From: Deinococcales bacterium
GTDB taxonomy: Bacteria > Deinococcota > Deinococci > Deinococcales > JAAFIG01
Assembly (NCBI GenBank): GCA_013298595.1
Contig: JAAFIG010000007.1
Span: 65,574-129,573 of the forward strand
Length of the DNA stretch: 64,000 nucleotides
Direction of reading: 5' to 3'
Every line of letters begins with the position of its first letter. Within the stretch, counting starts at the first letter, position 1. The notes beneath the pieces were generated by a model that was not told the origin of the DNA, ran no database searches, and worked only from the letters and a program-made list of their open reading frames with translations. Below are positions 24,338 through 33,813 of this stretch, piece after piece. The position numbers were made by a program, and so were the translations under genes.

Positions 24338-25522
24338 TTACGCCCTTGTAGTAACAATATCCACACTGGCAGCCCACTGACTAATATCACGGCGTTGAAT
24401 AGCCGCTGCCATCATGTCTGGAAACAAATCTGGTGTACAAGCAAACACAGGCACACCCATTTTGGCGAGTGCTGCACCATTTTGCACATCGTAACTGGGT
24501 CTGCCATCATCAGACAGCGCCAGCAAAGAAATGACCGTCACACCCGCAGCCACAAATGCCTCGAGTTTAGACAACATGGCAGCACTACCGCCACCTTCGT
24601 AAAGGTCAGAAATCAAAATAAAAATCGTATCCTCGGGTTTCTCGAGCAACCCCGCACAGTAATCCAGTGCTCGAGGGGTATCGTTACCACCACCGAGTTG
24701 CGTACCAAATAAGACATCCACAGGGTCGTGTAACTCGGCAGTTAAATCCACCACACTGGTGTCGTACACCACCACCCGTGTTCGCACTGCTGGTAGGCTT
24801 GCCAGCACCGCACCAAACACACCTGCGTACACCACACTTGATCCCATCGAACCACTTTGATCCAAGCACAAAATAATGTCACGCAGACTCGAGCGTTTGC
24901 GACCAAAACCAATTTTGGTTTCAGGCACAATACTCTGATAATCGGGTTGGTAATGCTTTAAGTTTGCCCGAATAGTCCGATTCCAATCCATTTCGGTGTG
25001 CTTAGGACGACGATTACGAATGGCACGATTCAGACTACCAACCACAGCTTCTCTGGTTTTCTCGGCTAATTTACGCTCGAGTTCCTCGACCACTTTACGC
25101 ACAATTAACCGCGCTGTTTCTTTGGCTTTGGCAGGCATGACATTCTTTAAGGAAAGTAATGTACTGACCATATGCACATCTGGCGTGACTGCCTCCATCA
25201 TCTCAGGCTCGAGCAGCATTCGTTTTAAGCCAAGCCGATCAAAGGCATCACGCTGCATCACTCGCACCACACTCGAGGGAAAAAACTCGCGGATATCACC
25301 AAGCCAACGTGCCACTTTCGGTTGCGATTTACCTTTTCCAACATTGTTACGGTTGCGTTCTTTATCCTCGGGCGACATGGGTTTACTCTCCCCATCGCCA
25401 TACAAAGACTCGAGCGCCATATCTAAACGCTGATCGGATGCACCACACGAACCACATGAATCATCGGCGGCACTGCCTAGCAGCAAACGCCAACGCCGAA
25501 AACGCTCTACCTCGAGACTCAT
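24338..25522 (-). CDS. VWA domain protein (CoxE/YehP-like) of the MoxR cluster
   Basis: A 394-residue cytoplasmic protein. The von Willebrand A domain (about residues 210-390) has an intact MIDAS site: LDQSGSM, a downstream Thr in GGGNDTPRAL, and an Asp in ILISDLYE. The N-terminal part is helical and charged, with a CGSCGASDQ segment near residue 23 that may bind metal. MoxR-type AAA ATPases typically act with a VWA partner to remodel or load metal onto targets, and the MoxR gene lies upstream in the same operon. It overlaps ung by 4 bp. It resembles E. coli YehP. Confidence 0.88.
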   Translation of the reverse strand: MSLEVERFRRWRLLLGSAADDSCGSCGASDQRLDMALESLYGDGESKPMSPEDKERNRNNVGKGKSQPKVARWLGDIREFFPSSVVRVMQRDAFDRLGLKRMLLEPEMMEAVTPDVHMVSTLLSLKNVMPAKAKETARLIVRKVVEELERKLAEKTREAVVGSLNRAIRNRRPKHTEMDWNRTIRANLKHYQPDYQSIVPETKIGFGRKRSSLRDIILCLDQSGSMGSSVVYAGVFGAVLASLPAVRTRVVVYDTSVVDLTAELHDPVDVLFGTQLGGGNDTPRALDYCAGLLEKPEDTIFILISDLYEGGGSAAMLSKLEAFVAAGVTVISLLALSDDGRPSYDVQNGAALAKMGVPVFACTPDLFPDMMAAAIQRRDISQWAASVDIVTTRA

Positions 25523-26184
25523 TCAAGACTCCAATCAATTGGGCTTTGCAATGCCGCATTGATCTTAGAAAAAGGCTTTGAACCAAAAAAACCATTACTA
25601 GCCGATAGCGGCGAAGGATGAGCGCTTTGAATCACTGTGTGCTTGGTCGTATCAATCAGCTCGAGTTTCTTTTGGGCATGAGCGCCCCACAAAACAAACA
25701 CCACAGGTTCGCCCTTGGCACTGACTGCCCTGATAATTGCATCGGTAAAATCCTCCCAACCACGTTTCTTATGCGAAGCTGGTTCGTGCGCTCGAACAGT
25801 TAAAACAGTATTCAACAGCAACACACCCTGCCGCGCCCAAGACTCGAGAAACCCATGCTTAGCACGTGGCACACCCAAATCCGACTCGAGTTCCTTGTAC
25901 ATATTAACCAAACTCGGCGGAACTTTGATGCCACGTTGCACACTAAACGCAAGCCCATGCGCCTGACCATCATCATGGTACGGGTCTTGCCCAACCACCA
26001 GCACCCGCACAGCATGAAACGGTGTGAACTCGAGTGCCGAAAACACTTCAGATTCAGGTGGGAAAACCTGATGCGCTTTACGTTCCGCTTCGAGAAAAGC
26101 CTCGAGTTTAGGCATGTATGGTTTAGAAAATTCAGACTCGAGCACGGTTTGCCAAGAAGCTGGGATTTGGGATTTCAGGGACAT
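25519..26184 (-). CDS. ung: Uracil-DNA glycosylase (family 1)
   Basis: A 221-residue Ung that removes uracil from DNA. Motifs are the water-activating loop GQDPYHDDGQAHGLAFSV (about residues 64-81, catalytic Asp), the Asn-containing LLLNTVLTVRAHEPASH, and HPSPLSASNGFFGSKPFSKIN with the Leu-intercalation His loop. The gene is complete. It lies in the middle of the MoxR/VWA operon: its stop overlaps the VWA start (ATGA), and upstream it is separated from DUF4240 by REP palindromes. Confidence 0.96.
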   Translation of the reverse strand: MSLKSQIPASWQTVLESEFSKPYMPKLEAFLEAERKAHQVFPPESEVFSALEFTPFHAVRVLVVGQDPYHDDGQAHGLAFSVQRGIKVPPSLVNMYKELESDLGVPRAKHGFLESWARQGVLLLNTVLTVRAHEPASHKKRGWEDFTDAIIRAVSAKGEPVVFVLWGAHAQKKLELIDTTKHTVIQSAHPSPLSASNGFFGSKPFSKINAALQSPIDWSLE

Positions 26185-26203: not shown

Positions 26204-26265
26204 AGGTGAGGCGTGCCTCACCGTTATGGTTGGACAAAGCAAGGCGAGGCATGCCTCGCCCCTAG
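26204..26265. repeat. Two REP-like palindromes between DUF4240 and ung
   Basis: Palindromes at 26,204-26,229 (GGTGAGGC…GCCTCACC) and 26,242-26,265 (GGCGAGGC…GCCTCGCCCC). The first shows compensatory T/A changes that keep the stem. Confidence 0.85.
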
Positions 26266-26269
26266 AGGT

Positions 26270-26800
26270 TTAGTCTTCGTTTTGACTCATCAGGGCGAAC
26301 AGGTTTGGGAAATGCTCTTGGTAAAAATCATCATCATCTTCATTCCACATCTCACCAAATTGATGATTCGCATCTCGAGGTGGGAACGGTGGATACTGAT
26401 CGGTGCGGGCTTGGTAGACATCAGAAGCCACGGATAACATATCTTCAAACTCGAGTTCTTCGTAGGGTTCCCAGTCAGGAATTTGCGGCAAATAATCCGC
26501 TAAAGAATCAGGGTTCTCGAGGGCTGCAAAAAACACGGTTTTACCTTGGGCAACAAGCCAACCACGAAAATAATCAAAACCATCATCGGAGCAACCACCA
26601 TTTATCAGGTACGCAGCTGCCCACAGTTTTGAGAGATACGAACGGTTAAGAAAAGTCCAAATCCAACCATGTAATGCCACCAATTCATCGTTTGATAAGG
26701 TTTCGGCTTGCACAGAAAATTGTTCTCGTAAAGCCTCGAGATCATGACCAGCCACAGCTCTTGCATTCGCAATAAAATCCCAGAATTGATCTTCGGTCAT
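26270..26800 (-). CDS. DUF4240 domain protein
   Basis: A 176-residue protein beginning MTEDQFWDFIANARA, the start typical of DUF4240. Characteristic WTFLNRSYLSKLWAAAYLINGGCSDDGFDYFRGWLVAQGKTVFFAALENPDSLADYL and a late acidic tail (WNEDDDDFYQEHFPNL) follow. The family is uncharacterised; some members resemble WGR-/ADP-ribose-associated regulators, which I do not claim here. It lies within the MoxR operon but is flanked on both sides by REP palindromes, suggesting it arrived as a separate cassette. Confidence 0.88.
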   Translation of the reverse strand: MTEDQFWDFIANARAVAGHDLEALREQFSVQAETLSNDELVALHGWIWTFLNRSYLSKLWAAAYLINGGCSDDGFDYFRGWLVAQGKTVFFAALENPDSLADYLPQIPDWEPYEELEFEDMLSVASDVYQARTDQYPPFPPRDANHQFGEMWNEDDDDFYQEHFPNLFALMSQNED

Positions 26801-26832
26801 GATGATGCTCCTTTATGGTTAGTTAGAACGGC

Positions 26833-26859
26833 AAGGCGAGGCATACCTCGCCCCTACGG
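26833..26859. repeat. REP-like palindrome between DUF5682 and DUF4240
   Basis: One palindrome (GGCGAGGC…CCTCGCCCCTACGG) fills the gap directly after the DUF5682 stop codon. Confidence 0.8.
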
Positions 26860-26860
26860 T

Positions 26861-29119
26861 TTAGGACGGAATTCCTAGCATTTGCGAAATTAATGGCACA
26901 ACTTGTTCGGCTCGAGCATTATCCACGTTTTGATTGGCTCGAGTAACACTGATTGGCTTTGGGGTTTTAACTTTTTGTCCGATGTCACGGCGTTCGGCAG
27001 GTTCAAAACTCGAGAATGTACGCCGCAACAATGGCAGCACAGCAATAAAAGCTTCGGGTGTCAGGTACTGCACCCAAGAATCAAGCACACCAAACAAGGC
27101 ATCATCGTGCACCAAAACCAAACCACTGCCACGCAAAAAACCATCCAACCAAGCAGCCACTTCGTTAGGGTCAGAGGCAATACTTGCCACATACGACAAA
27201 CGATTGGCAGTGTCCTCGGCAGTAAACACACCTTGCTCGAGCAGCAATCTTGAAGCACGACCCGCAATCAAACCATGCAACCCAAGTTGTTTAGCCAGCA
27301 CTTGCAACACATCACGCCAAGCCTCGAGTAAACTGGGTTGCTCGAGGGTTTGAATAGCGCTGTGTAACTCGAGAAAATGCGGATAAAGATCAAGTGCAGC
27401 CTCATCGGATAAACTGGCGGTGGCATTAGGTAAACCAATACAGACACGCAACACCAAACCAGACACCACATGTTCCAACATTTTCGTATCGAGTTGCCGC
27501 ACACTGCCGTACCGCTGCACTCGAGCCAATGGCGGAATCGCTTGCATCAAATGATTGATATCAGCATCCTGAGCTGCCGCCGCCTCGAGCCGAGCCATAA
27601 CCAGTTGCGCCGCATTGGGCAAATTCGACAGCAAGACATCATCCAGTAAACCCGTTAAGGTTGGTAAATGACTGGTTAAACTCGAAATTTCCAGAACCTT
27701 CTGTGTTGCTGCTTCAAGCACACTCGAGCCAAACATCGCCGCTTCGATCAAACGCACTGCAAACTCAGGATGCCACTGCACCCGCCATGCCTCTTTGAAC
27801 GTACCCTTGCCACTCGAGCCAACACTTTCGCCCCACGGTACACCCAGCAACCGCAACCGATGCAACAACACACTGCGCTCGAGATCATTGGGTTGACGCA
27901 AATCGAATTCCACATTTTTAGCAGTTGCATCAGGCTTAAACCGCAAACGTTTTTGCTCCGCCTCGAGATCACGCACCAACGGCACCGTCGGTGTTTCCGC
28001 GGGCACGGCACCAAGGGTTTCTGCCAGAATCAACTTATCGCTAATCAGTGCAAGTGGCAAATCAGAATCCCAAGCAAACAATGCCCGCGAAACCTCATTC
28101 ATTTCGTCTAACCCCGGCATCGGCGAACCACGCAAGGCTGCCAGCGTCTCGGCTAAACGCACCGCTTCGATAATACTGGCACTCGAAGCAGGTAAATCCT
28201 CAGCTCGCAACAAATGCGCCACCTTGGTCAACCAATGCGACACCACATTGCGCGAAGACGAATCCTGCAAATCCCACAAATGCGCGTACCAACCTGGGCT
28301 GGTCACACCCGCACCATAGCCACTCGAGCGAGCTAAACGACCAAACGTCCACGGAATCCACGTACTCGAAACAGCGACCTTTGGTAAATTCTCCAGCAAC
28401 TTCGCATCGGCTTTGGCATCCGCCACCTCGAGATTCAACGCAGGTGAATGCCACGCACCACAAACCACTGCGATACGCTGAAAACCATCCTTTTGCGCCT
28501 GACGAATGGTTTGTCGCATAAAGGCTTCACGCAACGCCTCACGCGGCTCGAGCATCTTCGACTCAAGCCTCAGCGCCGTCATTGCCTCGAGAATCGCTGC
28601 GAAGACATCCTCATCCGAACGGCGCTGCTCGACCAAATACTCCCAGTAACGCTCACCATCAGAAAAACCAGCAGCTCGAGCCAACCAACCCAACGGGTCA
28701 GCTGCAACATCATCAGATTCAGCATTAGCATCGCTCGAGGCATCAGATTCGGTTTCGGCATTGGGCGAGGCATGCCTCGCCCCTACGAGTTCGGTAGGAT
28801 CAGCAAGCAATTGATGGGCTTGCGGTAAATCCATAAAACGCACCGAAGCATTATTCTCGAGCGCAAAACGAATTGCTTGAAACTCAGGCGAAAACGCAGC
28901 AAACGGATAATACACAGCCTTCGACGGATCATCCTTAGCATGCAACAACAACGCAATAGGCGGTTTCATATCCACATGCCCAAGCAACGGCAACAAATCA
29001 TTAGCATCAGGCGGACCCTCCACCAACACACAATCAGGCTCGAGCACCCGCAACGCCCGCAACAACGAACGCGCCCCACCAGGACCATGATGACGCACAC
29101 CAAACAAATGCACACTCAT
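26861..29119 (-). CDS. DUF5682 family protein (YehM-like)
   Basis: A 752-residue DUF5682 protein. The N-terminal signature MSVHLFGVRHHGPGGARSLLRAL, then VLVEGPPDANDLLPLL and later IAVVCGAWHSPAL, resembles the active-site-like His and Glu layout of TraB/EreA-type folds; whether it is an enzyme is not known. The C-terminal half is Leu/Ala-rich helical repeats. It is encoded next to MoxR and VWA genes throughout bacteria. A REP palindrome at 28,763-28,787 is translated in frame (VGARHASPN near residue 114). Its ATG overlaps the transposase stop. Confidence 0.9.
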   Translation of the reverse strand: MSVHLFGVRHHGPGGARSLLRALRVLEPDCVLVEGPPDANDLLPLLGHVDMKPPIALLLHAKDDPSKAVYYPFAAFSPEFQAIRFALENNASVRFMDLPQAHQLLADPTELVGARHASPNAETESDASSDANAESDDVAADPLGWLARAAGFSDGERYWEYLVEQRRSDEDVFAAILEAMTALRLESKMLEPREALREAFMRQTIRQAQKDGFQRIAVVCGAWHSPALNLEVADAKADAKLLENLPKVAVSSTWIPWTFGRLARSSGYGAGVTSPGWYAHLWDLQDSSSRNVVSHWLTKVAHLLRAEDLPASSASIIEAVRLAETLAALRGSPMPGLDEMNEVSRALFAWDSDLPLALISDKLILAETLGAVPAETPTVPLVRDLEAEQKRLRFKPDATAKNVEFDLRQPNDLERSVLLHRLRLLGVPWGESVGSSGKGTFKEAWRVQWHPEFAVRLIEAAMFGSSVLEAATQKVLEISSLTSHLPTLTGLLDDVLLSNLPNAAQLVMARLEAAAAQDADINHLMQAIPPLARVQRYGSVRQLDTKMLEHVVSGLVLRVCIGLPNATASLSDEAALDLYPHFLELHSAIQTLEQPSLLEAWRDVLQVLAKQLGLHGLIAGRASRLLLEQGVFTAEDTANRLSYVASIASDPNEVAAWLDGFLRGSGLVLVHDDALFGVLDSWVQYLTPEAFIAVLPLLRRTFSSFEPAERRDIGQKVKTPKPISVTRANQNVDNARAEQVVPLISQMLGIPS
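28763..28787. repeat. REP-like palindrome inside the DUF5682 coding sequence
   Basis: GGGCGAGGC…GCCTCGCCCCTAC lies within the gene without breaking the frame. It encodes VGARHASPN in a Ser/Asp/Ala-rich linker. Confidence 0.85.
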
Positions 29120-29745
29120 ACCAACACCTCGAGCCTTGCAAAAACCAAATCATGCAACACCAAATCAGATTTCGCCTCGAGATCAAACAACCAACTCGAG
29201 GGATTGACTTTGATGTAATCACGAACAGCCTGTAATTCGTGGTTGTTACGTAAAACACGTTCAAAATAATTGCGCTGCCAAACAACCAAATTTGGATTAT
29301 CAAAACGAACCCGAGCAACTCGAGAAACTGCTGACTTAAAACCACCAATAATTGCCCCCAATGAATTGGCTGATGCGTTCATTGGGGGGTCGGCGGTCTT
29401 GGTTTGTGATAAAAACAATTCTTTTCGTGCAGCGGCTAACTGTATTGATGCGTTTGCCATTGGCAAATTGGGCGAGGCAAGCCCCGCCCCTACGGCTGGT
29501 TGAATGCAAACAATCGCATGAATGTGATTTGGCATGACAATAAATTCGTCTAAAACAATATTTTCACGCAACTGCCCCATCCGATGCCATTCCTCGAGAA
29601 TAATTTTCCCTAATTCATTTAATTGCATTTTTTGATCATCAATTGAACCAAAAATCTGTTCTCGCTGATAACTACAAATCGTAATGAAATACGCACCGCT
29701 CGAGGTGTAATCAAAATTGCGTAATCGAATGCTGTTGCGTTCCAT
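29116..29745 (-). CDS. REP-associated tyrosine transposase (RAYT, TnpA_REP/IS200-like)
   Basis: A Y1 HUH-type transposase of about 209 residues from ATG 29745 (MERNSIRLRNFDYTSSGAYFITIC). The HUH motif is PNHIHAIV, and the catalytic Tyr lies in RDYIKVNPSSW near the C-terminus; VWQRNYFERVLRN is typical of the RAYT group. An in-frame extension to TTG 29880 (254 residues) overlaps the MoxR stop by 4 bp, but it translates a 30-bp tandem repeat and a REP. The stop overlaps the DUF5682 ATG, so the gene is embedded in the operon. A second REP (29,470-29,496) is translated inside it. Confidence 0.9.
   Translation of the reverse strand: MERNSIRLRNFDYTSSGAYFITICSYQREQIFGSIDDQKMQLNELGKIILEEWHRMGQLRENIVLDEFIVMPNHIHAIVCIQPAVGAGLASPNLPMANASIQLAAARKELFLSQTKTADPPMNASANSLGAIIGGFKSAVSRVARVRFDNPNLVVWQRNYFERVLRNNHELQAVRDYIKVNPSSWLFDLEAKSDLVLHDLVFARLEVLV
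29470..29496. repeat. REP-like palindrome inside the RAYT coding sequence
   Basis: GGGCGAGGCAAGCCCCGCCCCTACGG is translated as part of PAVGAGLASPN, between the HUH motif and the C-terminal domain. The frame is kept. Confidence 0.85.
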
Positions 29746-29771
29746 AAAACCCCAAAATCCCTGTCCTAAAC

Positions 29772-29796
29772 CGTAGGGGCGGGGCTTGCCTCGCCC
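29772..29796. repeat. REP-like palindrome in the RAYT leader
   Basis: CCGTAGGGGCGGGGCTTGCC… lies just upstream of the likely RAYT start. In the extended frame it encodes GRGKPRPYG. Confidence 0.8.
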
Positions 29797-29855
29797 TTGC
29801 CCGTAACGATGCTGATCCATCCTGACTTGCCCGTAACGATGCTGATCCATCCTGA
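29796..29855. repeat. Two perfect 30-bp tandem repeats in the RAYT leader
   Basis: The unit beginning CTTGCCCGTAACGATGCTGA occurs at 29,796-29,825 and again at 29,826-29,855, identical. Its length is a multiple of three. On the minus strand it encodes a repeated RMDQHRYGQ block, so the frame from the MoxR stop to the RAYT stays open. Confidence 0.95.
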
Positions 29856-29876
29856 CCCATAAACAAAACAAATCCT

Positions 29877-30956
29877 TCAAACCACGTCACGACAAGCCCG
29901 ATAAACGTCTTTCCATCCGTCGCGTTCTTTGACCACTGTCTCGAGGTACTCAAGCATGACTACTCTGTCTTGGATTGGGTCTTTGATGATTGCACCTATG
30001 AGGCTTGAGGCGACATCGTTAGCGCGGAGGATGCCATCGCCAAAGTGGGCTGCGAGGGCAAGTCCTTGGTTGATAACGCCGATGGCTTCAGCGGTGCTAA
30101 GTGTGCCGCTTGGGCTTTTCAGTTTGGTTTTTCCGTCGAGTGTTTTGCCGTCGCGGAGTTCGCGGAAGACTTGGACAACCCGACGGATTTCTTCGAGTGC
30201 GGGTGGTTCGGCGGGTAGCTCGAGAGCGCGTCCAAGATCGGCTACGCGAGTTTGCACAATACGAATTTCTTCGTTGAGGTCGTCTGGTACGGGTAAAATA
30301 ACAGTGTTGAAGCGGCGTTTGAGGGCGCTCGAGAGTTCGTTGACTCCTCGGTCTTTGTTGTTGGCGGTGGCGATCATGTTGAAGCCTTTTTGGGCTTGGA
30401 CTTCGCTATTAAGTTCGGGGATGGGCAGTGTTTTTTCGGATAGCACGGTAATCAGTGCGTCTTGAACATCGGATGGGATGCGGGTGAGTTCCTCGAGTCG
30501 AGCAATAGCGCCTGTTTTCATGGCGCGAATGATTGGGCTTTCGACGATGGCTTTGACGCTGGGTCCTTTGGAGAGCAGTTCGGCGTAATTCCAACCGTAA
30601 CGAATGGCTTCTTCGGATGTGCCAGCGGTGCCTTGAACCAGTAAGGTGCTATCGCCACTGATGGCGGCGGCTAAGTGTTCGGATACCCAACTTTTGGCTG
30701 TGCCCGGCACGCCAAGTAATAACAGTGCGCGGTCGGTGGCAAGGGTTGCCACGGCGATTTCCATCAGGCGTTGGTTGCCGATGTATTTGGGTTTGATCTC
30801 GAGTTTGCTAACCTTGCCACCCATCAGGTATTGAATCACTGCCCACGGGCTGAGTTTCCAGTTGGGTGGTCTGGGTTTGTCGTCGAGTTTGGCGAGTGCC
30901 TCGAGTTCTTCTGCGAATTGTTGTTCGGCGTGTTGACGGAGGGCATTTTCGCTCAT
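29877..30956 (-). CDS. MoxR-family AAA ATPase (YehL-like)
   Basis: A 359-residue AAA+ ATPase from ATG 30956, which overlaps the DUF5691 stop by 4 bp. Walker A is LGVPGTAKSW, Walker B/sensor region ARLEELTRIPSDVQDALITVLSE, and sensor 1/arginine-finger segment IATANNKDRGVNELSSALKRRFN. The C-terminal lid follows. MoxR proteins act with VWA partners as remodelling chaperones; the VWA, SWIM, DUF5682 and DUF5691 partners are all in this operon. A longer frame from 31043 would overlap the upstream gene by 90 bp and lacks conservation. Confidence 0.93.
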   Translation of the reverse strand: MSENALRQHAEQQFAEELEALAKLDDKPRPPNWKLSPWAVIQYLMGGKVSKLEIKPKYIGNQRLMEIAVATLATDRALLLLGVPGTAKSWVSEHLAAAISGDSTLLVQGTAGTSEEAIRYGWNYAELLSKGPSVKAIVESPIIRAMKTGAIARLEELTRIPSDVQDALITVLSEKTLPIPELNSEVQAQKGFNMIATANNKDRGVNELSSALKRRFNTVILPVPDDLNEEIRIVQTRVADLGRALELPAEPPALEEIRRVVQVFRELRDGKTLDGKTKLKSPSGTLSTAEAIGVINQGLALAAHFGDGILRANDVASSLIGAIIKDPIQDRVVMLEYLETVVKERDGWKDVYRACRDVV

Positions 30957-32506
30957 GGTTGTAGTTCCTTTCGCATTGCGTTGCGGGTCTCGAGGTGAGA
31001 GATGAGGGTTTTGATTTGCTCGAGGTGGTGTTGGATGTACCATGCTCGATTATTTTTTTCGGGGTTAAATTGGTTTGTTTGCTCGAGGAAACTTGTCCAG
31101 TTTGGGTGTTTTGTTGGGTTGTGCCAGTGCTGAATAATGTCTGGGTGGCAGTATTGGGCGATGTTTTGGATGTTGTGGTAATTGCTGGTACCTTTGAGGA
31201 TTTGTTTGCTGATATTGCCTAGCCACTCGAGGCAGTCGCGGCTGAATTCGATGTTCCATGCGTGGTTCATCCAAGCGAGCCATTGAAAATCGTGGGTTTG
31301 TTTAGCGAAGATAAAGTACCGAACGCGTTTTTCGCGTTGCTCGAGGCTTAGGGTTTTCATCAGGGTTTCGTTTTTGATTAGGTCGTTGTCGTAACTGAGT
31401 AAGGCATCTATCCATTCTGGGTTGGGGTGAATTTCGTTGGCTTGAACAAAGGCAATCAATAAGTTTTTGCGCCAATCTTTGGGTAGGCGTTTGATGATTT
31501 CTTTTGGCTCGAGATGAAAGTGTGGTTGCCATGTGCTGATGGGGATATTAGCGATGATGCTTTGCAACCAGTAGGCTTTGTCGCCGCCTGTGCCGTATGG
31601 TGTTTTTTTCTCAATACCATCGCGTCCAAGTTCGGTGTTCCATTCGGGTAATTCGATTTCAAATTCTGGTGCGCCAAGTTTCAATGCCGATTTTTTCAGT
31701 GGGATGCTCAGGATGTTTTGTCCTCGAGCAATCATGCGTTGCACCAAGGCGCTGTTGGGTAGTTTAGCCAGTAACATGGCGGCGATACTGCGGACATCTT
31801 TGCTGCGATCATCTAAGCAAGTCTCGAGGAAAGGTTCGTCGGCATCGGTTAATTTGCTTTCGAGTTCGCTTAAAAAAGTTTTGCGTTCCTCGGCAACTTC
31901 GGCTTTCCAAACACTTTGTAATAAGTCTCGGGCGGTGTCTGGTTGTTCGGTTCGGATGCTGCGAAAAGCCAGGACCCGAGCGGCTTTGGTACCTGTTTCC
32001 CATGTCTCGAGGGCATTTTCTAAGCTGCTGGTGTTACCTGTTGCCCATGACCAGTACGGGTTTTGTTGGGCTAACCAACGTCCTCTCGAGTCAAGGATTG
32101 GCATGATGGTTTCGCGGCTGGCAGTATTTTGTCTGCCGTAATCGAGCAAAGCAATAATATGGCTGTGCGGAATAGCATAATTGCTTTGCTTGACCAACTC
32201 GAGCCATTCGGGAATTAGTTCTGTTGCCGAGGCAAATAACAAATCGAGTCGTTGCATGGCTGCTTCAGAAATACGCACTCGAGTATCAGGTTCGGCTGGT
32301 GTCAGCGGTTTGCTATTGGCATTGGTTTGTTCGCCTGCTCGAGTCATGGCAAAAGCCAGTGCGGCAACGCCAAGCAGTTGTCCTGTATGGCGTTGGTCTT
32401 CTAAGTTCACTCGAGCTTTTTCAAGGGCGGGGTGCTCCAGCGTACCAAGGGGGCTGCGTTCAGTGCCGAGTAAAGCACTCGAGATGATGGCGCGAAGGTC
32501 GTTCAT
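30953..32506 (-). CDS. DUF5691 family protein
   Basis: A 517-residue protein that begins MNDLRAIISSALLGTERSPL, as DUF5691 members do. It is mainly helical, with HEAT-like segments (RDLLQSVWKAEVAEERKTFLSELESKLTDADEPFLETCLDDRSKDVRSIAAMLLAKLPNSALVQRMI) suggesting a scaffold. It is coupled to SWIM upstream and MoxR downstream by 4-bp overlaps. The molecular role is unknown; the family is essentially always found beside MoxR and SWIM genes. Confidence 0.88.
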   Translation of the reverse strand: MNDLRAIISSALLGTERSPLGTLEHPALEKARVNLEDQRHTGQLLGVAALAFAMTRAGEQTNANSKPLTPAEPDTRVRISEAAMQRLDLLFASATELIPEWLELVKQSNYAIPHSHIIALLDYGRQNTASRETIMPILDSRGRWLAQQNPYWSWATGNTSSLENALETWETGTKAARVLAFRSIRTEQPDTARDLLQSVWKAEVAEERKTFLSELESKLTDADEPFLETCLDDRSKDVRSIAAMLLAKLPNSALVQRMIARGQNILSIPLKKSALKLGAPEFEIELPEWNTELGRDGIEKKTPYGTGGDKAYWLQSIIANIPISTWQPHFHLEPKEIIKRLPKDWRKNLLIAFVQANEIHPNPEWIDALLSYDNDLIKNETLMKTLSLEQREKRVRYFIFAKQTHDFQWLAWMNHAWNIEFSRDCLEWLGNISKQILKGTSNYHNIQNIAQYCHPDIIQHWHNPTKHPNWTSFLEQTNQFNPEKNNRAWYIQHHLEQIKTLISHLETRNAMRKELQP

Positions 32507-33813
32507 GCTTGCCCTCCGATACTGTGGACTTTGCCATCGGTGAATAAAGTGATTGGTGTTAATTCTTTGCCGTCATATTCACCAAAAAGTTGTACAGGGT
32601 GTCCGCCACTCAGTGCCAGCATTTGCCAACCTCGTTCGGTGTTCAAAGGTATGGCATGGCTCGAGTCTTGCACGCGCCAATCTGTGTCATCAAAAATAAT
32701 TTGTACCGCCTCGAGACAGATGGGGTAACGTTCGAGCCAAGGCAATTTTGCAAGAGCTGCTGCGTATTTCTCGAGCGCGGTGTGGATGCTATCGGCTGGT
32801 AGTGTTGAAATATTTTCCAGCATTTTGACATCAGGTTTGAGGATGGCTCGGAGTGGCAAATTGCTCGGGTAAAACACCAGTTCGGTCTCGAGGGTCACAC
32901 CGATGGGTACGCCACCTGTCATTGGTTGATTTGCCACAGCAAAATCGAGCAGTAGTGCAGGTTCTCGAGTGTCAGCATGCTCGAGGTACGTGCGGCGAAC
33001 TCGCAGGTTGTCTTCTTGAACCAGTATTTGCCCAAGGCTATGCCAACGGCTGCGCGGTACACTGGCTTGCAGCAGTTCAGCTTTGTCTTGAGTAAAACCA
33101 ATGGCGGCACGCACATCGGCTTGCGTGGTTGCAGAAAGTGTCTCGAGACGGCTGTACGCACTAATAATTAAATGCAAACGTGCCAATGCCTCGAGTAATG
33201 CGTTGGTGCCACTGCTGGCAGCCGTAGGGAGGTCTCGTACCATGCGGGCTAACCCTGGGGCTTGAGCATCCACCAACCGAGCTGCTACGGTTTCCCAGTA
33301 ACTGTACGGCTGGCTTGGCGCGTTTGCCAAACCATTTTTAATTTGATCGTGCAACCACAAACCAAATTCCTCGATTCCTGCCGATACTTTATTTTCCCGC
33401 GAAGCCACACGTTTCGCCGCAGCTTTATCGGCTTTGGCTTGTTCTTCTGGGGTTAATTCCTTAGGTGGTGCAGTTTTAGCTTCGGCACGTTTTTGTCTTC
33501 CCTCGAGCCACGTTGTTACCCACTCGGGCGGTGTGCCCGTCTCGAGTGGTTTAGCAGCATGCAAAAGCATCAAACCAATCGCGTGTTTACACGGAAATTT
33601 CCGACTGGGGCAACTGCATTTGGCGGTGTAATCGCTTAAATCTACCCGAGTTTGATACGGGTCTTTGCCGCTGCCTTGGCATTCGCCCCACAGGGCGGTT
33701 TCGCTGGCGGCAGTACTTTTCCATTTGCTGGCATTGGCGAGTCCTTTGCCGCTCGAGGCTGAGGATGCGTCTGGGGCTAAAGCGAGGATTTGTGCGGCGT
33801 TGAGTTGCGTCAC
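32503..33813 (-). CDS. SWIM zinc-finger protein (YehQ-like)
   Basis: A 436-residue protein with an N-terminal SWIM motif C-S-C-P-S-R-K-F-P-C-K-H (about residues 71-82; CxCx6CxH) in the context DYTAKCSCPSRKFPCKHAIGLML. SWIM domains bind zinc and DNA or protein. The rest is a long helical region without a recognised domain. It is the first gene of the operon SWIM–DUF5691–MoxR–RAYT–DUF5682–DUF4240–ung–VWA. The 220-bp spacer upstream, shared with a divergent reductase gene, must hold the operon promoter, but I could not define it. Confidence 0.9.
   Translation of the reverse strand: MTQLNAAQILALAPDASSASSGKGLANASKWKSTAASETALWGECQGSGKDPYQTRVDLSDYTAKCSCPSRKFPCKHAIGLMLLHAAKPLETGTPPEWVTTWLEGRQKRAEAKTAPPKELTPEEQAKADKAAAKRVASRENKVSAGIEEFGLWLHDQIKNGLANAPSQPYSYWETVAARLVDAQAPGLARMVRDLPTAASSGTNALLEALARLHLIISAYSRLETLSATTQADVRAAIGFTQDKAELLQASVPRSRWHSLGQILVQEDNLRVRRTYLEHADTREPALLLDFAVANQPMTGGVPIGVTLETELVFYPSNLPLRAILKPDVKMLENISTLPADSIHTALEKYAAALAKLPWLERYPICLEAVQIIFDDTDWRVQDSSHAIPLNTERGWQMLALSGGHPVQLFGEYDGKELTPITLFTDGKVHSIGGQA

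Follow-up and report, generated by a model that had tools for sequence, protein, structure and literature searches.

Genes for transposases associated with repetitive extragenic palindromes (REPs), known as REP-associated tyrosine transposases (RAYTs) or TnpA_REP, are regarded as domesticated transposases passed on by vertical descent, with a benefit that is unknown (in the accessible part of PMC8049555), and REPtrons reportedly do not seem to transpose as single units (in the accessible part of PMC6006769). Intragenic GTAG REPs in general are already known (PMC3733652, consulted in part), and in TnpA_REP subclass 2.4 REPs lie in frame between the HuH and Y motifs, a feature reported in the same part of PMC6006769 to be unique to that subclass. 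Here we analyse a RAYT gene in a 64,000-nucleotide stretch of DNA (hereafter the window) from a Deinococcales bacterium (GenBank assembly GCA_013298595.1, contig JAAFIG010000007.1, positions 65,574 to 129,573 of the forward strand), part of a 4.58-Mb genome in 68 contigs that we code G000 and whose closest named relatives are Deinococcales metagenome-assembled genomes. The gene lies on the minus strand at 29116–29745 and encodes 209 residues; it follows the gene for a MoxR AAA+ ATPase (29877–30956, minus strand) and precedes that for a DUF5682 protein (26861–29119, minus strand). We propose, with a probability of roughly two in three, that this RAYT has lodged at an operon stop/start junction, where it would be translated by coupling, rather than serving as a partner of MoxR.

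The RAYT overlaps the DUF5682 start (ATG at 29119) by the tetranucleotide ATGA (29116–29119, minus strand), as a first-pass annotation, made from the letters of the window, had pointed out. This overlap recurs in the related genomes G001 and G002, which together with G000 and G003 form one family (f1) of three genera, and in G063, from another family. In the window, the 3′ end of the RAYT provides a Shine-Dalgarno-like stretch, GAGGTG, 5 nt upstream of the ATGA that starts DUF5682; G002 lacks the stretch. The length of the RAYT tail varies among G000, G001, G002, and G063 while the ATGA persists, and the annotation's suggestion that the insertion was tuned to keep downstream translation fits these features of the 3′ end. 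The overlap proposed for the other end of the gene, in which an extended frame meets the MoxR stop by TTGA, is not a genuine junction. Specifically, the open frame runs from a TTG at 29880 to 29116 (254 residues), and homology to every relative starts at ATG 29745; the in-frame extension (29746–29880, minus strand) belongs to the MoxR–RAYT spacer, whose 131 nt from the MoxR stop to ATG 29745 contain one REP and a 30-nt unit repeated twice in tandem. The extension is absent from G001 and G003, where MoxR and the RAYT are separated by 1 nt and 2 nt, respectively. By chance the REP-bearing spacer is open, which alone keeps the TTG-start frame open, and we reject TTGA as a designed 5′ coupling to MoxR, since the spacer is REP-derived and the relatives are without that segment. 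A single 4-bp overlap is, in itself, ordinary for operon neighbours: a 50-kb plasmid stretch from Thermus, a genetically tractable genus, has 35 co-directional pairs, and 8 of them overlap in this way.

The MoxR–RAYT adjacency is present in all four genomes of the family and in G063. In G002 we infer it across a contig break, the MoxR contig end and the RAYT contig end running into the same REP-like tandem array. The ATGA between RAYT and DUF5682 is present in four of the five RAYT-bearing loci (G000, G001, G002, and G063). The full MoxR–RAYT–DUF5682 order, which the annotation had proposed to look for in relatives, accordingly stands in G001, in G063 with its ATGA, and probably in G002; it does not stand in G003, where the RAYT follows MoxR and is itself followed by truB (named by eye), DUF5682 lying on another contig behind another gene. 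By tblastn, the RAYT is absent from all 15 other MoxR–DUF5682 loci, namely those of G008, G058, G092, G104 (two), and G105 within the phylum, and nine from other phyla (L046–L054). Nearly all of these keep the order SWIM–DUF5691–MoxR–DUF5682–VWA (the G092 contig starts within MoxR), and the RAYT is therefore the newcomer. Loci without a RAYT, which the annotation had named as the result that would speak against it if found in the closest relatives, occur only outside the RAYT-bearing lineages. DUF5682 itself is patchy, with matches over the cut-off in 10 of 111 genomes of the phylum.

RAYTs of this phylum sit at the junctions of other operons as well. A search of the phylum found RAYTs in 25 of the 111 genomes, and 31 places were read for junctions, 29 of them with an intact frame; several fragmentary matches were left out. 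An ATGA or GTGA overlap is present upstream (5′) in 9 of the 29 and downstream, onto an open reading frame of at least 150 residues, in 9 of the 29; both sides overlap in three and either side in 15. The annotation's view of RAYTs as mostly lone genes is not borne out in this phylum. The three two-sided cases lie between HsdS and HsdR (G085), between an FAD oxidoreductase and DUF4127 (G064), and between a GNAT gene and an unknown gene (G002_C91). Altogether, RAYT junctions involve HsdS/HsdR, trpE/trpS, an FAD oxidoreductase or a permease with DUF4127, GNAT, methyltransferase, and hydrolase genes, the neighbours named by Pfam being HsdS, HsdR, TrpE, TrpS, ABC permease, DUF4127, FAD oxidoreductase, GNAT, N6-methylase, hydrolase, and HIT. 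The RAYT stop lies within [AG]TGA in 20 of 29 cases, versus 17 of 46 Thermus plasmid genes and 36 of 125 long open reading frames of the same loci. A Shine-Dalgarno-like stretch of at least four bases precedes the ATGA by 5 to 11 nt in 8 of the 12 ATGA-ending RAYTs, comprising the operon copies of G000, G001, and G063 together with G085, G037_C9, G007, G103_C16, and G064; the operon copy of G002 is without it. In G037_C9, G007, and G103_C16 the frames opened by the ATGA are short (53, 56, and 25 codons), and these are candidate downstream genes only. On plasmids from other phyla there were two RAYT matches, and in neither case is the gene closely coupled to a neighbour of the same orientation. 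That RAYT genes can contain REPs has been published; the junction habit was not found in print among the records listed in a literature search covering IS200, REPtron/tnpAREP, RAYT operons with type I restriction, and ATGA-overlap coupling, and PMC8266576 contains none of the six terms looked for in it.

Sites without a RAYT, or with the remains of one, are present at several of these junctions. Ten HsdR loci were compared, with G077 left out and the upstream genes of G084, G067, and G087 being other or unclear. HsdS and HsdR meet without a RAYT at a bare ATGA overlap in G007 and G086 and at TGATG in G063 (in G007, an ATG lies 6 nt upstream of the TTG at the HsdR start). In G085, where a RAYT separates the two genes, ATGA is present on each side of it. 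In G080 (L151), an N-terminal RAYT remnant is present and the ATGA onto HsdR is kept. Before trpS in G003 (C18; L098/L174), an in-frame TAG interrupts the RAYT, whose end nonetheless overlaps trpS by ATGA. Among 19 DUF4127 loci, 13 without a start motif were left out of the reading; in G061 (L205) and G063 (L203), a short stretch that by eye resembles a RAYT 3′ end bridges the upstream gene and DUF4127. Downstream of a further RAYT of the window's genome, G000_C2, the sequence differs from that of its nearest G001 relative.

The RAYT of the window is constrained but fast-evolving, and is kept under purifying selection. Between G000 and G001, the ratio of nonsynonymous to synonymous substitution rates (dN/dS) is 0.175 for the RAYT, 0.157 for DUF5691, 0.093 for SWIM, 0.085 for DUF5682, and 0.022 for MoxR; these values are rough, with a high dS of about 1.4 to 2.8 for the five genes. 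A ratio of 1 is rejected for the RAYT (2ΔlnL = 61). Identity between the two genomes is 56% for the RAYT, 83% for DUF5682, and 94% for MoxR.

Taken together, these observations suggest the following history. A REP-handling RAYT with internal REPs, active or recently active, would have entered a conserved operon between moxR and the DUF5682 gene before the family split into three genera, at a junction that was probably ATGA, to judge from the operon's other junctions. Purifying selection would then have kept the cistron intact, and it would have been read as part of the operon, with ribosomes passing on to DUF5682; the last RAYT codons appear, from the sequence, to supply both a ribosome-binding site and the ATGA start for DUF5682 translation. 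A seat at the junction would permit RAYT expression without harm to the operon. The protein probably works in REP handling, cleaving single strands of the genome's REPs and copying these repeats, which are clustered here. A clean deletion would be hard, as the RAYT now includes the downstream start. Persistence may reflect constraint on the RAYT, perhaps via REP functions, together with that start. The locus would thus be one case of a wider habit, in which RAYTs of the phylum take junctions of several unrelated operons. The presence of a RAYT in one operon for the lifetime of a family, with cousins seated likewise in other operons and matching empty sites at one of these, points to a simple route to persistence, namely expression and protection via translational coupling, and suggests that RAYT genes themselves moved, and precisely.

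Several observations weigh against a RAYT lodged at operon junctions and translated by coupling. The p-values for the excess of [AG]TGA stops, 0.009 against the Thermus genes and 9e-5 against the long frames of the same loci, are optimistic, as the same RAYT loci recur in related species and do not count as independent. The rate of overlap per side, 18 of 58, is not clearly above that of native neighbours (8/35); the RAYT has the linkage of a native operon gene, not clearly a tighter one, and for a transposase this is odd. The empty DUF4127 sites are not ATGA, with TAG directly abutting ATG in G062 and TAG-CC-ATG in G059, and no ATGA is present between MoxR and DUF5682 in the phylum's RAYT-less loci, where gaps range from 1 to 270 nt. 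In the tree of MoxR and DUF5682, G063 pairs with the RAYT-less locus G104a (97/94), and the RAYT tree does not resolve a single clade of operon RAYTs (approximately unbiased (AU) test, p 0.062, or 0.219 with G002_C91 included). We also rejected a strict ATGA target at every locus, which is unsupported at DUF4127 and not shown at MoxR/DUF5682.

The two trees bear on how often the insertion occurred. In the MoxR and DUF5682 tree, the four family members form one clade (100/99); the pairing of G063 with G104a implies either a single insertion followed by a loss or two insertions. Independent insertions at the same junction, in the family and in G063, or transfer of a RAYT-bearing operon between families would account for that pairing and for the patchy distribution of DUF5682. 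Against this stands the RAYT tree (32 places taken, five without a full frame dropped), in which the G063 copy groups with G002_C91 and the operon RAYTs of the family and is separated from the 19 other phylum RAYTs (branch 84/97; two G058 copies lie across the midpoint root). A single clade is, moreover, not rejected by the AU tests on the RAYT tree or, for the five RAYT-bearing loci, on the MoxR and DUF5682 tree (p 0.059). We rate repeated insertion or transfer at somewhat under an even chance, and either would be compatible with lodging at junctions; the history may have been a single old insertion with later loss, two insertions, or transfer.

Other accounts differ on what the RAYT is for and on how it came to lie here. 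The annotation had raised domestication into the MoxR system, and the RAYT could on this account be, for example, a nuclease or nucleic-acid sensor controlled by MoxR/VWA/DUF5682. Such a role would agree with the conservation of the locus in the family, the recurrence of the MoxR adjacency in G063, purifying selection on the RAYT, and the fact that the RAYT stayed with MoxR where the G003 operon broke; the same break shows DUF5682 not tied to the RAYT. A domesticated part would be expected at other MoxR–DUF5682 loci, where it is found in 0 of 15, and closely related RAYTs of the same kind are not restricted to the MoxR system but lie in unrelated operons. The RAYT also diverges far faster than MoxR or DUF5682, and a PADLOC scan of six proteins of the locus gave no match. 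We rejected a partnership with MoxR argued from conservation alone as first choice, since same-kind RAYTs occur in other operons, and consider domestication of this kind very improbable. A neutral passenger, that is, an immobile RAYT that drifted in by chance, is of no use to host or REPs, and is kept only as its removal would upset DUF5682, is marginally more credible and still improbable: elsewhere RAYTs decay and the junction stays, as before trpS in G003, HsdR in G080, and DUF4127 in G061 and G063, but the frame and catalytic residues are intact in all five MoxR-linked RAYTs, dN/dS is well under 1, and internal REPs match the REP set of the genome.

A further reading concerns mobility. Some RAYTs may be gene-only mobile elements, in which the open frame itself moves, aimed at the [A/G]TGA stop/start overlap of an operon. 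The upstream copy of the tetranucleotide would end the upstream gene and start the RAYT, the last four bases of the RAYT would close it and reopen translation at the downstream gene, whose ribosome-binding site would lie in the last RAYT codons, and neither neighbour would be disrupted. We regard gene-only mobility as unlikely, if less so than domestication or a neutral passenger: its evidence is a single locus that has two clean empty sites, together with the three two-sided overlaps, and one empty-site locus disagrees.

The protein is a real Y1 HUH transposase of the RAYT type, in agreement with its initial naming as an IS200-like REP transposase. In particular, Pfam Y1_Tnp matches at 28.5 bits (cut-off 23), and REP_Tyr_transpos is the sole NCBIfam match (E 4e-15, 55.9 bits), under a cut-off of 80 that is a name-giving threshold rather than a biological feature. 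The HUH motif comprises residues 74–76 and the catalytic-type tyrosine is residue 177; H74, H76, and Y177 are invariant in all 29 intact RAYTs aligned, and the HxH and Tyr align by sequence with those of the E. coli RAYT (PDB 4ER8), in which Y115 is presumably the catalytic tyrosine. An AlphaFold model has a mean pLDDT of 79.9, with residues 88–120 below 50; this low-confidence segment overlaps the REP-encoded residues. The genome has three RAYT-like genes.

Five REPs lie within 26248–29796 (3.5 kb), versus 0.086 expected from the 111 copies of the pattern genome-wide: between MoxR and the RAYT (29771–29796, plus strand; an exact 26-base match), within the RAYT coding sequence, in its HUH–Tyr loop (29470–29495, minus strand), inside DUF5682 (28763–28788, minus strand), downstream of DUF5682 (26840–26857, minus strand; one mismatch to the pattern), and, as a REP-like copy, downstream of the DUF4240 gene (26248–26265, minus strand; one mismatch). 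G000 thus has REPs both flanking the RAYT and dispersed through the genome. Counts are 111 in G000 (reversed-pattern control 0) and 174 in G001 (control 7); the pattern stands out weakly in G002, with 92 copies to a control of 56, and does not exceed its control in G003 (11 versus 10), a genome with different REPs. A hairpin with arms of at least 9 is present in the HuH–Tyr loop of 18 of 27 phylum RAYTs, 12 of them with perfect arms of at least 14; the window RAYT's own loop hairpin fails the threshold of 9, though the in-frame REP is present. A REP inside a RAYT is already published (in the accessible part of PMC6006769), and we do not put it forward as a discovery. As a separate observation, DUF5682 of G000, G001, and G002 carries a REP at roughly the same place, different in sequence in each (in the window as above; about 5961 in L039 and about 7147 in L040), as if REPs were swapped in place. 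The tandem REP-like array between MoxR and the RAYT in G002 (ends of L040 and L070) broke the assembly.

On the minus strand, the operon reads SWIM–DUF5691–MoxR–RAYT–DUF5682–(DUF4240)–UDG–VWA, with ATGA overlaps at SWIM/DUF5691, DUF5691/MoxR, RAYT/DUF5682, and UDG/VWA. The remaining genes, all on this strand, encode a SWIM zinc-finger protein (32503–33813), DUF5691 (30953–32506), a DUF4240 protein (26270–26800), uracil-DNA glycosylase (UDG; 25519–26184; between DUF5682 and VWA in G000, G001, and G003), and a CoxE-like VWA protein (24338–25522), the last conserved gene of the operon. The bpMoxR score of the window MoxR is slightly under its cut-off. Among the records listed in a literature search on DUF5682/MoxR and yehL/yehM/yehP, there was no account of the function of a SWIM–DUF5691–MoxR–DUF5682–VWA operon. 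Apart from the genes, the palindrome CTCGAG is hyperabundant in the 64-kb window (384 sites, versus 7.2 expected from shuffles). Its density is 5.6–8.7 per kb in the G000–G003 family loci, 5.3 in G008, and 0.9 in Thermus pTT27, and GAGCTC is absent from the family loci read. We take it to resemble a HIP1-type palindrome, here outside cyanobacteria.

The operon and its RAYT can each be set beside described systems. MoxR–VWA systems such as RavA–ViaA and NorQ–NorD likewise combine a MoxR AAA+ protein and a CoxE-like VWA protein in a single operon; unlike them, the operon of the window adds SWIM, DUF5691, and DUF5682. The fold of the RAYT model matches TnpA of IS608 and ISDra2 (IS200/IS605; E 3e-6) and 4ER8 in a structure search, and no insertion sequence ends or TnpB turned up near 29116–29880, though none were searched for. 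Having a REP within its own coding sequence, the RAYT appears to resemble subclass 2.4 (Quentin et al. 2018, PMC6006769), with which it shares the in-frame REP, 'double-foot' GTAG...CTAC REPs, nearby REPs, and intact HuH and Tyr motifs; in the accessible part of that account, a position at the stop/start overlaps of operons does not come up. With the E. coli REPtron (4ER8) it has in common the HxH and Tyr motifs, the fold, and the clustering of REPs round the gene. REPtron genes are described as REP-flanked, whereas the RAYT of the window is a putatively coupled cistron in a foreign operon.

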